This document shows, piece after piece, positions 3,009 through 53,294 of a stretch of 64,000 nt of DNA (position 1 is its first letter; each line of letters opens with the position of its first letter). The stretch covers positions 434,001 through 498,000 of the forward strand of contig NZ_VFOX01000002.1 in NCBI RefSeq assembly GCF_006716345.1, given 5' to 3'. The notes under the pieces are model-generated. The model did not search any database and was not told the origin of the DNA. It saw only the letters and a list, made by a program, of their open reading frames with translations. This DNA comes from Microbacterium saperdae (lineage in GTDB: Bacteria; Actinomycetota; Actinomycetes; Actinomycetales; Microbacteriaceae). A program made the position numbers and the translations under genes.

Positions 3009-5279
3009 GTGGAAACGCCGAAATGGCTTCGAAGAGCGCTCGACCTCCCAGGCGCTACATCGTTTGCATCGTTGGAGCCTTTGGCGGATCAGGCGATCTC
3101 ACTGCGAGAGGAGCTGCGCGATCTCTCGGGAGCGGATCTCATCCAGCGGGCTCAGGTGGGCGATGGAGCTCATGCGCAGGTGCTTGCGGTCGCCGCAGAG
3201 GCGTCTCGACGCGCGCTCGGCGTCGTGCCGTTCCGTGAGCAGATGTTGGCCGCTGCGGCGATGCTCGCGGGCTTCGCTGTGGAACTGGACACGGGAGAAG
3301 GCAAGACGCTGGCAGGCGCCTTGGCCGCGGCGGGGTTCGCGCTCAAAGGGCGATCGGTTCACGTGATCTCCGTCAACGACTATCTCGCTCGGCGGGATGC
3401 TGCGTGGATGGGCCCGCTGTATGCGGCACTGGGCCTTTCGGTGACGGCTGTCGAGGAATCGACGGGCACCGAGCAGCGGCGCGCTGCGTACAGAGGCGAT
3501 GTCGTCTACGTGAGCGTCAGCGAAGTCGGCTACGACGTGCTGCGTGACCGGTTCTGCATTCATGAAGACGACCGGGTGTCTCCGGCGATGGATGTCGCCA
3601 TCGTCGACGAAGCCGATGCCGTCATGATCGACGAGGCGATCATCCCTCTCGTCCTCGCGGGCACTGCGGCGATCCCCGAAGGTGATGTGGCTCAGTCTGC
3701 ATCGCTCGTCCTCGACCTCGAGGACGGTGTCGACTACCTGGTGGACGACGACGGTGCCACGGTGACATTCACCGACAAGGCTCTCGACGAGCTCGAGTCG
3801 CAGCTCGGCGGCATCAACCTCTATTCTCCGGAGAACATCCCCACCCTGACCGGTCTCACGCTGGCCCTGCACGCGAAAGTGCTGATGCGTCGTGACGTCG
3901 ATTACATCGTGGACGGCGACGATCTTCGACTCGTGAACACGACTCGTGGGCGGGTCGCTGAAGGGCAGCGGTGGCCAGACGGGATGCACGCCGCCGTGGA
4001 GGCGAAAGAAGGGCTCACCTCGAGCGGAGCGGGCATCGTGCTCGATCAGGTGACCGTGCAAGATCTGCTTGTGACATACCGGACTCTGCTCGGCATGAGC
4101 GGGACCGTGCTGGACGTCTCGGAGGACTTGCTGGAGTTCTACAGCCTGCGCTCCGGACGGGTCGAGCGACGGCTGCCACTGGCGAGGTCAGACGAGCCCG
4201 ACATCATCGTCGACACGGAGGCGGATGTCTTCGAGGCTGTGGTCGATGTGGTGCAGCGCTGCCACGAGGACGCCCGGCCTGTGCTCGTGGGGACGCAGAG
4301 TGTCGCCGCGTCTGAGGCCATTGGGAAACTCTTGACGGCCCGCGGCCTCGACGTTCGTGTGCTCAACGCGAAGAACGACGAGGCGGAGGCATACACCGTC
4401 TCGCGTGCGGGCGAGCTGGGCGCCATCACGATATCCACCCAGATGTCGGGCAGAGGCACCGACATCGTGCTCGGTGGCGTGGATGGAGCTGACCATGAAG
4501 CTGTCGCGTCAGTCGGCGGGCTCATGGTCATCCAGGTCGGGTTGTATCCTTCGCGCCGCTTGGATGCGCAGTTGCGTGGGCGGGCGGGAAGACAAGGCGA
4601 CCCCGGGGGTTCCCTGCGCATCGCGAGTCTGCAGGATGTTCTGATCGCCACGACGGCGACCAGAACGATCGCCTCGCAGATCGAACGGCCCGCGCGACTC
4701 ACCCGCAAGCGCAAGGAGTACATACTGGACGTCGCGCAGGACATTTCCGAGGCAGTTCGCGCCGACCAGCACCGGGCCACCTGGGGATATCACCGGGCCA
4801 TCGCGCTGCAGCGATCTGCGGTATTGAGGGAGCGCGAGGCGCTCATCTCCTCGGACTCGACGTTGTGGGCCCGTCTGGGAAGAGTTCCCAGGGACGAGGA
4901 CGACGACGACTTCACGACGGCCGTCCGCGAAGTCGCAGTATCCACGATGGATGACCTCTGGTGCGACCATCTTGCGATGCTGCAGGAGACAAGAGACGGG
5001 ATTCATCTCCGCGCGCTGGGCGGGCAGAACCCACTCGATGAGTTCCATCGCATCGCTTTGATCGCGTTCGACGGCTTCTTCGAACGCGTCTACCAGGCTG
5101 TGGATCGACTTCTCTTCGCGACGGGAGAGCTCGATGCGCAGGCCGCCGCGGCAGCTGCGCGGCTGCGACGACCATCGGCGACGTGGACGTACATGATCAC
5201 GGACAATCCGTTGGGAGACGCGGCGTCCCGAGCAGCCGAGTCTTTGCGCACGATGTGGGCGGACCGGCGGCGACGATGA
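3009..5279 (+). CDS. secA2: Accessory preprotein translocase ATPase SecA2-like
   Basis: 756-residue SecA-family motor. It has a Walker A LDTGEGKTL (residues 93-101), the SVNDYLARRDAAWMGP motif, VSEVGYDVLRDR, Walker B VDEADAVMIDEA (residues 199-210), the IEAKEG-type segment VEAKEGL, GMSGTV, TISTQMSGRGTDIVLGG and DAQLRGRAGRQGDPG. It ends without the C-terminal zinc/SecB-binding Cys motif of housekeeping SecA. Length and this truncation match actinobacterial SecA2, which exports a subset of proteins with SecYEG. GTG 3009 is chosen because GAAGAAGG lies just upstream and the protein then begins like SecA. No accessory SecY or substrate gene is adjacent. Confidence 0.85.
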   Translation: METPKWLRRALDLPGATSFASLEPLADQAISLREELRDLSGADLIQRAQVGDGAHAQVLAVAAEASRRALGVVPFREQMLAAAAMLAGFAVELDTGEGKTLAGALAAAGFALKGRSVHVISVNDYLARRDAAWMGPLYAALGLSVTAVEESTGTEQRRAAYRGDVVYVSVSEVGYDVLRDRFCIHEDDRVSPAMDVAIVDEADAVMIDEAIIPLVLAGTAAIPEGDVAQSASLVLDLEDGVDYLVDDDGATVTFTDKALDELESQLGGINLYSPENIPTLTGLTLALHAKVLMRRDVDYIVDGDDLRLVNTTRGRVAEGQRWPDGMHAAVEAKEGLTSSGAGIVLDQVTVQDLLVTYRTLLGMSGTVLDVSEDLLEFYSLRSGRVERRLPLARSDEPDIIVDTEADVFEAVVDVVQRCHEDARPVLVGTQSVAASEAIGKLLTARGLDVRVLNAKNDEAEAYTVSRAGELGAITISTQMSGRGTDIVLGGVDGADHEAVASVGGLMVIQVGLYPSRRLDAQLRGRAGRQGDPGGSLRIASLQDVLIATTATRTIASQIERPARLTRKRKEYILDVAQDISEAVRADQHRATWGYHRAIALQRSAVLREREALISSDSTLWARLGRVPRDEDDDDFTTAVREVAVSTMDDLWCDHLAMLQETRDGIHLRALGGQNPLDEFHRIALIAFDGFFERVYQAVDRLLFATGELDAQAAAAAARLRRPSATWTYMITDNPLGDAASRAAESLRTMWADRRRR

Positions 5280-50640: not shown

Positions 50641-50906
50641 ACGTGCTCCTGATCCTGATCCTGATCGTGTTCGGCGTCGCCGCGATCCTCACCCTCATCC
50701 GCATCGTGCGGGGGCCGTCGATCCTGGACCGCGCGGTGGCCTCCGACGTGCTGTTGACCGAGGTCATGTGCGTGATCGGCGCGGAGATGGCCATCAACGG
50801 GCACACCCGCAGCATCCCGGTGCTGTTGATCATCGCCGCGATCGGGGTGTTCGGCTCGATCGCCGTCGCGCGTTTCGTCGCGAGAAGGGACAACACGACA
50901 CCATGA
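50637..50906 (+). CDS. mrpF: Na+/H+ antiporter subunit F (MrpF)
   Basis: 89-residue protein with three helices. The conserved LIRIVRGPSILDRAVASDVL motif near residue 20 and the small-residue third helix are typical of MrpF. Overlaps mrpE and mrpG (ATGA each). Confidence 0.92.
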   Translation: MNVLLILILIVFGVAAILTLIRIVRGPSILDRAVASDVLLTEVMCVIGAEMAINGHTRSIPVLLIIAAIGVFGSIAVARFVARRDNTTP

Positions 50907-51292
50907 ACGTGTTCGGTCTGTTGATCCCCGACGCCGTGATCGACGTCGCGGTGCTCGTTCTCATCCTGCTCGGCGCACTGCTCTGCCTGTCGGCCGCGGT
51001 CGGACTGCTCCACTTCCGCGATGTGCCCTCCCGCCTGCACGCGGCCACCAAGCCCCAGGTGCTCGGCCTCGTGCTGATCTGCCTCGCGGTCGCTCTGTCG
51101 CAGCGCAGTGTGGGCGGCATCCTGCTCGGGCTCGTGCTGGTCGCTCCGATCGTGCTGATGCAGTTCGCGACCGCACCGCTCTCGGCGCACATGGTAGGAC
51201 GTCAGGCCTATCGCAACGGCACCATGGAGCACCGCACCCTGGTCGTCGACGAGCTCGCGGATTCGAAGCAGACCCCTCCCGGCGCCGGGTAG
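50903..51292 (+). CDS. mrpG: Na+/H+ antiporter subunit G (MrpG)
   Basis: 129-residue protein with three helices and the family motif GLLHFRDVPSRLHAATKPQVLG. It is the last gene of the mrp operon (order A/B, C, D, E, F, G, complete). A hydrophilic tail of about 35 residues follows the final helix. It is placed 50 bases before the repeat element upstream of the endonuclease gene. Confidence 0.92.
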   Translation: MNVFGLLIPDAVIDVAVLVLILLGALLCLSAAVGLLHFRDVPSRLHAATKPQVLGLVLICLAVALSQRSVGGILLGLVLVAPIVLMQFATAPLSAHMVGRQAYRNGTMEHRTLVVDELADSKQTPPGAG

Positions 51293-51343: not shown

Positions 51344-51424
51344 CCACAACTCCGGAGATTCGGCTGCGTTCGCGATCAGACTGCCCCCGGGCGGGGTGAA
51401 CAGCGTGGATCTCCGGAGTTATGG
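51344..51424. repeat. 81-bp inverted-arm repeat, copy 1
   Basis: Begins CCACAACTCCGGAGA (51344-51358) and ends TCTCCGGAGTTATGG (51410-51424); the arms pair at 14 of 15 positions. The interior of about 51 bases is partly similar to copy 2 (GCGAT near the middle, CGGGG and an ACG/GCGTG segment before the right arm). It lies between mrpG and the endonuclease gene. Confidence 0.8.
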
Positions 51425-51542
51425 CATCCGTACCTTTGAGAGGGCACCCGACCTTTCCTGCAAAGGCGCGCGAGGATAATCTCCCATCCACAATCGGCCG
51501 GATCGCTCTCCGCCGCCCGTCTCCCTGGGCAGTCTTTCCGGC

Positions 51543-52481
51543 ATGCCCCATGACAACAGGAAGCCGCATGCGCTGCTTGCGGAGCTTCGGACCCTATCGA
51601 TCATTCCGCGTCACGTGCTCATCAGTTCAGGGATGTCGACCCATGACATCACGTCGGCGGTCCGATCAGGACGGCTCATGCGGGTGCGGCGAGGGGTGTA
51701 TACGCTTCCGAGCATGCCGGAACCGATCATTGCGGCGGTACGGCTGGGCGGTCGCATCTCCTGCCTCACGCTTCTTCAACTGATAGGGGTGTTCGTCCAC
51801 TCGTGCAGGGAGCCGCACGTGCATGTCCCACCCCACCTCTCACGCAGTCGTGGGCGCAGGCAAAGGGATCTCCTGGTGCATTGGGGCACTCGCCTGGACG
51901 AAGGCGAACCGCACATGGTCTCGATTCGAGACGCGGTACTCCAATCCGTTCGATGTCAGTCCCCACGGGCATCGATCGCGACGCTCGACAGCGTTCTGCA
52001 TCACGGATTGTTGAGGCAGGAGGACCTCGTCCAGATCTTCACGAACCTTCCGCTGCGCTACCACCCGCTTCTGGCTCTCGTAGACGCATCGGCGGAGTCG
52101 GGGCCCGAGACCTACCTGAGACTGATCCTCCGCTCGCTCGGGCTGCGGTTCGAGACCCAAGTTCATCTCCCCGGTGTCGGACGCGTGGACTTCCTCGTGG
52201 AAGGGTGGCTCGTCATCGAGTGTGACAGTCGAGCGTTTCATCAGGGGTGGGACAGACAGGTCAGAGACCGCCGGCGGGACATCGCCGCCGCCCGGCTCGG
52301 CTACGTCACGATTCGACCGCTGGCCAGCGACCTTCTGGAGGCGCAGGCGCGTGTACGGTCCGATCTGCAGGCCGTGGTCGACGCCTTCGGCTCCCGGCTC
52401 TCAGGCCGCGCAGCTCCACAACTCCGGAGAAAGAGTGCACAAAGGCGCGATACGTCGGCGTCATCGGGGCACCGACGCTGA
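51543..52481 (+). CDS. AbiEi-like HTH plus Vsr-like endonuclease protein
   Basis: 312-residue protein. Residues about 10-60 resemble the AbiEi antitoxin-type HTH (ISSGMSTHDITSAVRSGRLMRVRRGVYTL). Residues about 185-285 look like a Vsr/DUF559-type PD-(D/E)XK nuclease (LGLRFETQVHLPGVGRVDFLVEGWLVIECDSRAFHQ..., RRRDIAAARLGYVTIRP). Such fusions recur in actinobacteria without a defined role. There is no good ribosome binding site at ATG 51543. The last 21 codons are inside repeat copy 2, and copy 1 lies 118 bases before the start. Function could be defence or repair; neither is shown. Confidence 0.7.
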   Translation: MPHDNRKPHALLAELRTLSIIPRHVLISSGMSTHDITSAVRSGRLMRVRRGVYTLPSMPEPIIAAVRLGGRISCLTLLQLIGVFVHSCREPHVHVPPHLSRSRGRRQRDLLVHWGTRLDEGEPHMVSIRDAVLQSVRCQSPRASIATLDSVLHHGLLRQEDLVQIFTNLPLRYHPLLALVDASAESGPETYLRLILRSLGLRFETQVHLPGVGRVDFLVEGWLVIECDSRAFHQGWDRQVRDRRRDIAAARLGYVTIRPLASDLLEAQARVRSDLQAVVDAFGSRLSGRAAPQLRRKSAQRRDTSASSGHRR

Positions 52482-52497
52482 ATCTCCGGAGTTATGG
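52416..52497. repeat. 82-bp inverted-arm repeat, copy 2
   Basis: Same arms as copy 1: CCACAACTCCGGAGA (52416-52430) and TCTCCGGAGTTATGG (52483-52497). The interior differs but shares short blocks and nearly the same length. The copy is in the same orientation as copy 1 and overlaps the 3' end of the endonuclease gene. Confidence 0.8.
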
Positions 52498-52532: not shown

Positions 52533-53294
52533 TCAGAGTGCGTCGGCGAAGCGCTGGATCAGGCGCGCGGCGGGCTCGGAGTCGCTGATCAGCGTGCCGT
52601 GGCCGTGGTCCGGGATCACCTGGAGGTCGGCGCCCGGGATCTCGTCGATGATCTCCTGGCACCAGCTCATCGGCGCGAGCGGGTCGTCCTCGCCGCGCAG
52701 AACGAGCACCGGCACGTCGATACGTGCGAACGCCTTCTCGGGCTCGTGCACGATCGTGGCCTTCATCTTGCGCACCAGATGCGGGCCGCCACGCAGATAC
52801 TCGCGCGCACCGCGCCACAGCACCTCGGGCCGCTCGCCCATCAGGTCGCGCAGCAGGTAGGTCGCCTGGGCACGGATGTTGCGGGCCGCCTTGTTCACCG
52901 TGGGGCCGGCGAGGATGACGCCCTCCACGAGAGACGGATGACGTGCCGCGAGCTCCGCCGCGATCTGACTGCCCATCGAGTGGCCGATCACGACCACTCT
53001 GCCCGCGTCGAACTCACGCAGGTACGCCGCGACGAGGTCGGCGTGCCGCTCCATCGTGAACGTGCGAGAGGGCTCCGGCGCCTCTCCGAAACCGGGAAGG
53101 TCGAACGCGATCATGCGTCCCTTCAGCTTCTGCACGACGTCGAGATAGACGCTGCGACCCATGCCGATGCCGTGCAGCAGGATGAACGTGTGCGCGCCCT
53201 CGCCGAAGGTCTCGGCGATCAGGCTGGCGCCGCTGCGCTCGAACTCGACGAGGGTCACAGGGACGCCCTTCGGGGCGAGGAGACTTTTCGGCAC
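52533..53294 (-). CDS. Alpha/beta hydrolase
   Basis: 253-residue alpha/beta-fold hydrolase. Oxyanion HG motif in ILLHGIGMGRSVY, nucleophile Ser in VIGHSMGSQIAAEL, catalytic Asp in LRGEDDPLAP and His in IPDHGHGTL. No signal peptide. Ester or C-C bond hydrolysis of an unknown small substrate is expected. It lies downstream of the penicillin-acylase-type gene on the same strand, but a hairpin and a repeat between them suggest separate units. Confidence 0.86.
   Translation of the reverse strand: MPKSLLAPKGVPVTLVEFERSGASLIAETFGEGAHTFILLHGIGMGRSVYLDVVQKLKGRMIAFDLPGFGEAPEPSRTFTMERHADLVAAYLREFDAGRVVVIGHSMGSQIAAELAARHPSLVEGVILAGPTVNKAARNIRAQATYLLRDLMGERPEVLWRGAREYLRGGPHLVRKMKATIVHEPEKAFARIDVPVLVLRGEDDPLAPMSWCQEIIDEIPGADLQVIPDHGHGTLISDSEPAARLIQRFADAL

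Follow-up and report, generated by a model that had tools for sequence, protein, structure and literature searches.

RAYT-REPIN systems are reported to combine dispersed, paired inverted repeats of constant spacing (in P. fluorescens SBW25 with peaks at 71 and 110 bp), located mostly downstream of genes, with a RAYT that is single-copy and vertically inherited (PMC3116915, PMC3733652, PMC8049555), and they are described as a slow replicator kept together with its enzyme (PMC8049555). AbiEi, the antitoxin of the AbiE type IV toxin-antitoxin system, is reported to bind inverted repeats and to bend DNA (PMC7319586), and the EDxHD homing enzyme I-Bth0305I to dimerize on nearly 60 bp (PMC3943268). 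MTES_1575 is described as a Vsr-type restriction endonuclease domain within a Microbacterium testaceum protein of more than 2100 residues that also carries helicase and HEPN domains (PMC3710099). In this study, we analyzed a block at positions 51344-52497 of a 64,000-nucleotide stretch of the Microbacterium saperdae genome (the window; contig NZ_VFOX01000002.1, positions 434,001-498,000), in which a gene for a putative nuclease with AbiEi-like and Vsr/EDxHD-like parts stands between two copies of a two-arm repeat element. We consider it fairly likely that this block belongs to a family of pairs resident in the chromosome, each made up of a site-specific nuclease and its own sites, which the nuclease is predicted to bind and cut. 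This gene-and-site system resembles RAYT-REPIN to some extent in how it works, but lacks two of the features that define the latter.

The left element is 81 bp long (51344-51424), with a left arm CCACAACTCCGGAGA on the forward strand (51344-51358) and an inverted right arm TCTCCGGAGTTATGG on the reverse strand (51410-51424). The right element is 82 bp long (52416-52497) and carries CCACAACTCCGGAGA at 52416-52430 (forward) and TCTCCGGAGTTATGG at 52483-52497 (reverse). The nuclease gene (51543-52481, forward strand, 312 amino acids (aa)) runs into the right element, which covers the last 21 codons (63 coding bases) of the open reading frame (ORF). An earlier reading of the letters of the window (hereafter the sequence-only reading) had pointed out both the two arm pairs in the same orientation and the contribution of the repeat to the end of the protein, and our coordinates confirm the two observations. 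Within the window, a repeat search reports the arm regions of the two elements as repeats of each other, but not the interiors. When up to three mismatches are allowed, the window contains six arm matches (chance mean 2.15; at least six in 4 of 100 shuffles), four of which are the arms of both elements with 0 or 1 mismatch.

Homologues of the nuclease were found at an E-value of 1e-40 in 89 of 149 genomes of the genus, and 21 out of 25 named matches are labeled Microbacterium, the others Microbacteriaceae (two), Naasia and Amnibacterium. A homologue was scored as bracketed by the presence, on both sides of the gene, of inverted 12-base arms 60-100 bp from each other, together with the likeness of its left and right arms, with a threshold of 31 out of 36 that was chosen after the scores were known. 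Thirty-five out of 46 distinct close homologues are bracketed, against 0 of 920 shuffled flanks, and in 33 of these 35 the spans on the two sides differ by no more than 1 bp. Among distant homologues, 16 out of 26 are bracketed (0 of 520 shuffled flanks), by arms that are mostly quite different. A threshold of 30 gives 36 of 46 against 7 of 920 for the close set and 16 of 26 against 1 of 520 for the distant set. The close set consists of 27 of 30 loci (the window and two contig-end loci left out) plus 19 of 25 (after removal of five duplicates and a locus at a contig end), and the distant set of 26 of 30 loci from a profile search of 21 genomes (two duplicates and two contig-end loci left out). 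In a set scored over somewhat wider ranges and without a shuffled control, 31 is reached by 11 of 20 further distant loci and by all eight other loci, which were picked near known homologues or elements and two of which repeat earlier loci. A swapped-partner control reaches the threshold of 31 in 20% because relatives have arm types in common.

The arm types around homologues include AACTCCGGA, AACTCCTCA, AACTCAGGA, AATTCAGCA, GCAGAACTCCAC and GTCCCGATCTGC. Genome G085 encodes two homologues, one enclosed by CTCA-type and the other by CAGGA-type arms, which occur in 40 and 21 copies in that genome, respectively. The genome of M. saperdae contains three further homologues: L298 (C2:192207) is clearly bracketed (arms GAAGGAGATCTC, spans 67/67, score 34), L297 lies at the threshold (31) and L296 fails (27). 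The bracketing, together with the co-variation of arms and gene described below, supports the suggestion of the sequence-only reading that the repeat may be recognized by the encoded nuclease, a binding that we predict from the sequences.

The N-terminal part of the protein contains an AbiEi-type winged helix. Pfam AbiEi_4 (PF13338) matches aa 28-56 with 31 bits (cut-off 25), in a part encoded at 51591-51710 that lies within a structural match of aa 17-181 to AbiEi (6y8q). A middle domain follows (about aa 57-181; 51711-52085), possibly AbiEi C-terminal-domain-like, and then a C-terminal Vsr/EDxHD-type nuclease domain (about aa 184-287; 52092-52403), all on the forward strand. Of the description ‘AbiEi/Vsr-like endonuclease’ given by the sequence-only reading, the first half has a Pfam match above the cut-off, whereas the Vsr-like matches stay below theirs: MTES_1575, the domain of the M. 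testaceum protein, matches aa 195-276 with 28.7 bits (cut-off 38.2) and DUF559 reaches 15.6 bits (cut-off 20.6). The closest fold of the nuclease part is that of I-Bth0305I. Both structural matches come from VIA-align, which was used as a second look, with folds missed by Foldseek beyond its reach. In a sequence profile search, 3hrl was the sole member of the nuclease fold that was recovered, and weakly (E-value 0.013). Residues E189, D216, E226, D228, H233, D242 and D246 are invariant in 16 aligned sequences, so that the conserved acidic and histidine residues of an EDxHD/Vsr-like catalytic fold are present. The gene encodes an AbiEi-like part, predicted to bind DNA, fused to a Vsr/EDxHD-type nuclease that probably cuts it.

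AbiEi antitoxins have the same type of winged helix but, unlike them, the protein studied here is fused to a nuclease, and its putative sites are dispersed and consist of arms about 60 bp apart instead of being adjacent in its own promoter. Neither an AbiEii partner nor a methylase is encoded by the three flanking genes scanned (mrpG, an alpha/beta hydrolase gene and a penicillin amidase gene). The known I-Bth0305I is phage-derived, whereas the present gene is chromosomal, has an AbiEi-type DNA-binding part and coexists with many intact sites in its host. The latter point and the lack of both partners among the three flanking genes speak against a defence unit, an option offered by the sequence-only reading, in which a restriction-like nuclease would have the elements as by-products or decoys. 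The AbiEi-like part would suit such a unit, as would gene identities that are unrelated to those of the neighbor (see below). PADLOC matches of the nuclease are to AbiEi models exclusively, we found no direct support for defence, and we regard this explanation as very improbable.

The elements are dispersed in the genome of M. saperdae. In its two contigs (4.3 Mb), the arm has 31 matches with at most one mismatch, which, ordered by position, belong to 18 convergent pairs at a fixed spacing, the two in the window and 16 elsewhere. The reversed pattern has no match there, and this control was zero in all genome searches but one (two matches in G085 and one in G139). When 99 distinct elements were placed relative to genes with a simple home-made gene caller, which missed the nuclease gene of the window, 43 fell between tandem, 35 between convergent and 8 between divergent genes, with 11 inside predicted ORFs and two at edges. 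Background spacers of at least 100 bp, drawn from regions fetched for other purposes, count 61 tandem, 21 convergent and 45 divergent. Elements of the arm types covered by genome-wide searches are mostly intergenic and are seldom found between divergent genes.

Elements of different arm types are also found next to each other, the start of one lying about 93-95 bp from that of the other (L187 with L198; G112:C9:69504/69598; G143:C4:12462/12556; G001:C5:3409832/3409925), looking as if a new type arises beside an older one. Another local arrangement, at G057:C11:45397-45929 (L150), consists of three near-identical, near-palindromic CTCA-type elements of 65 bp that are 215-253 bp apart.

In the three arm types studied, the DNA between the arms keeps to a fixed helical phase, and A/T recurs in it about every 10 bp. 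Of 152 distinct elements of three arm types (40-160 bp allowed), 133 measure 72-75 bp, eight 63-65 bp and nine 84-86 bp, with single elements of 68 and 81 bp; 150 of them are thus near 64, 74 or 85 bp, in steps of about one turn of the DNA helix. Except for the host genome, the loci were fetched with patterns of 66-82 or 64-84 bp, which restricts how far the counts reflect the frequencies of the 64 and 84 bp classes, but the gaps at 66-71 and 76-83 bp (bar the two single elements) fall inside the search ranges. The interiors have little sequence in common, but A/T content is highest around positions 12, 22-23 and 32-33 and at the mirror positions. In 2000 shuffles within each sequence, a periodicity as strong as that observed never arose for the CCGGA (74 and 73 bp), CTCA and CAGSA sets, the latter two being hand-picked among the matches listed, with near-duplicates and other lengths left out. 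In 130 of 132 elements of 74 bp, the A/T content is higher at in-phase than at anti-phase positions (0.56-0.58 vs 0.11-0.14), the in-phase positions being taken from earlier A/T profiles. The peaks are made up of A as well as T (0.41 and 0.48 at position 12; 0.31 and 0.27 at position 22), which makes residual ancestry an unlikely cause, and no A/T pattern was found in the flanks outside the arms. Interior length and A/T phase suggest double-stranded DNA that is tightly bent or wrapped, rather than a hairpin.

This bears on the possibility that the elements form single-strand hairpins, be they REP/REPIN-type repeats, terminators or others, and that the nuclease gene is a mere neighbor. Such repeats would share the paired inverted arms and the preference for 3' ends, some interiors look terminator-hairpin-like by eye, and pairing at positions 10-14 persists in the CTCA (0.54 vs 0.41) and CAGSA (0.45 vs 0.33) sets. 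Beyond position 15, however, the two halves pair no more than the between-element control does, and this holds for all five sets. The helical phasing and the periodic A/T are features of double-stranded DNA, and the genes are bracketed by matched arms. Among 20 genomes of the genus, including 16 that bear elements, none yielded the Y1 (HUH) tyrosine transposase (PF01797), which was detected in 5 of 14 named genomes used as a positive control; this refutes the RAYT version for the 20 genomes scanned. For these reasons (transposase, pairing and phasing), we reject the hairpin reading, to which we give hardly any credence. Like a RAYT, the gene is flanked by its own, dispersed repeats. It differs in its enzyme type (AbiEi plus Vsr/EDxHD instead of Y1/HUH), in the lack of pairing past the first ~14 bases of the arms and hence of a hairpin beyond the ends, in the double-strand phasing, and in the presence of several homologues per genome.

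The locus was compared with that of G117, the nearest relative by mrpG. Identity is 92.8% over 1890 bp and stops at the stop codon of mrpG, the left neighbor of the block (PhaG_MnhG_YufB; 50903-51292, forward strand); it restarts just before and in the convergent alpha/beta hydrolase gene on the right (52533-53294, reverse strand), with 94% over the last 136 bp. The gene in between is only 49% identical and has CAGGA-type arms around it. Apart from the window pair, which was treated separately, 16 of the 18 host elements were examined for orthology, and eight of them have both flanks in the G117 stretches that were fetched. At seven of these eight places G117 also has an element: four intact and one degenerate of CAGGA type, and one intact and one decayed of CTCA type. 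Five of the seven retained elements therefore show, in each genome, the arm type of the nuclease gene that resides there. At L028/L233, both arms carry a change of the same base around an interior that, by eye, is clearly orthologous; for the remaining three intact CAGGA-type loci, interior likeness exceeds that of unrelated interiors (P 0.004, 0.028 and 0.057). The elements seem to be mostly old residents that co-evolve with the nuclease.

With such retention, the block is probably not a recent event, contrary to the discrete mobile cassette envisaged by the sequence-only reading. A recent cassette or composite transposon bounded by the inverted-arm repeats would explain that the gene is present or absent between species at the same locus, that 3 of 14 near element pairs are strongly alike as local near-duplicates, and that one of the eight places is empty. 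At that sole empty place (L194 vs L239), however, the missing stretch exceeds the element and its ends do not coincide with those of the element. The gene lies behind mrpG, itself detected in 147 of the 149 genomes, in 17 of these genomes according to a coordinate comparison, and no phage or plasmid record spans 80% of the protein (partial matches to one phage and four plasmid records, 28-33% identity). We judge a recent cassette to be quite unlikely. The sequence-only reading had named as its refutation repeat copies scattered through the genome without the gene, together with a cassette fixed at this locus in all relatives. Half of this applies, since copies are present throughout the genome at places away from the gene, yet it fails as a refutation because different gene variants have different bracketing arm types.

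The retention could also mean that the protein is a domesticated DNA-wrapping factor of a host regulon or chromosome architecture, with fixed sites that the host needs, often at gene 3' ends (insulation, termination or nucleoid structure), and a nuclease fold that is incidental or rarely used. The seven elements kept in place and the excess of convergent over divergent locations would agree with this, and arm change in situ could be explained by selection on each site. The invariant nuclease residues are hard to reconcile with it, as are the two unlike arm types together in G085. A needed regulator would not be expected to be absent behind mrpG in other species, nor to vary in identity independently of mrpG. 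We therefore consider a host regulon unlikely, although our estimate for it overlaps with that for resident nuclease-site pairs, as the two are not exclusive.

In the 17 genomes with the gene at the mrpG locus, identity of the gene does not follow that of mrpG (Spearman 0.003, 136 pairs), as if alleles had been exchanged or had diverged past recognizable descent. The 14 gene pairs that share their arms exceed the expected likeness by 3.2 points (permutation P 0.029). The comparison of the mrpG-hydrolase interval proposed by the sequence-only reading uncovered gene-free loci in other species; these hold a solo element twice (G088; G041 by eye) and once, by eye, an apparent remnant of the nuclease gene (L130, G023:C497), which suggests loss at this locus. 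Solo elements, the remnant, the unrelated identities and the I-Bth0305I-like fold would all fit a homing endonuclease, i.e., a gene that spreads between strains by cutting a solo element at its target locus and is copied in with the flanking elements. A classical homing gene interrupts its own target. Here the target is not interrupted; two intact elements flank the gene and the host keeps 16 others, so that homing appears rather improbable, somewhat more so than a host regulon.

Several results weigh against resident nuclease-site pairs. The bracketing test is failed by 11 of 46 close, 10 of 26 distant and 9 of 20 further distant homologues, and G071 has 23 CCGGA-type elements, with no arms of this type bracketing any of its five homologous gene places. 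In the test for co-occurrence across genomes, also advised by the sequence-only reading, a homologue at an E-value of 1e-40 does not predict the element type in the 149 genomes (Fisher P 0.68, 0.48 and 0.10; any type 0.06), and simple co-occurrence of the gene with one arm type was dropped as not significant. Such presence-absence is a poor test, since all 21 profile-searched genomes, including 19 that formerly looked gene-free, contain homologues at an E-value of 1e-8. Two of the seven retained G117 elements are without the arm type resident in G117. Interiors are shared among far element pairs in 8 of 580 cases (vs 1 of 1236), but the six best of these pairs all come from G091. In the interiors, the 64-bp set has a best period of 11.25 (P 0.002), and the distant arm families show no significant A/T periodicity (P 0.07, 28 elements; autocorrelation).

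For the pairs of nuclease and sites that we favor, a mechanism can be proposed with AbiEi and I-Bth0305I as the nearest biochemical parallels. A protein dimer would bind the two inverted arms via its AbiEi-like winged helices, and the roughly six turns between the arm centers would be bent or wrapped around the dimer in phase, so that the nuclease domains could meet and act on the bent stretch between the arms. A cut or nick made there may maintain the elements and, very occasionally, copy them. Retention, dispersal and excess interior sharing fit such a slow resident replicator with its enzyme, which would lead a RAYT-REPIN-like life but rely on an unrelated nuclease with double-stranded DNA as its substrate. 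Concerted change of the arms would require that each site be under selection or that conversion be confined to the arms. We put forward only tentatively, as possible rather than probable, that this is a new class of genome-resident replicator, in which a dimeric AbiEi-Vsr/EDxHD nuclease recognizes dozens of chromosomal sites whose two inverted arms are separated by about one superhelical turn of wrapped double-stranded DNA, and the arms are rewritten in concert with the nuclease allele by selection or by arm-limited, nuclease-driven conversion.

To our knowledge, the elements belong to no described repeat class, and we found no description of them in the open-access literature among the matches listed. 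If the proposal is correct, a second, unrelated type of enzyme would have arrived at the RAYT-REPIN lifestyle of a resident enzyme tending a population of tiny repeats. The elements would also be a case of an apparent bacterial DNA-bending code that is readable from sequence, and of protein and site specificity shifting together at several loci, with natural variants suited to binding assays. In that case, the annotation of genes as ‘AbiEi family antitoxin’ or ‘DUF559’ may have to be reconsidered.

In addition, we made a few minor observations on element interiors and on the position of homologues. The elements at 4831, 4293, 4953 and 1501 of L074, L075, L076 and L063, respectively, apparently enclose the same promoter/operator-like sequence, TGTTGACGT ... 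ACGTGAACA, in four species, so that an interior can be host DNA with a function of its own. A second motif, CGGCGTGTCG or a near variant, recurs on either strand within elements of G050, G140, G052, G091 and G085. In 11 genomes, two homologues face each other by eye at a distance of 17-23 kb; in one of them (L227, G138:C1:3108500-3128499), the stretch in between carries housekeeping genes, named by eye as adenosine deaminase, sdh genes, trpS and others.
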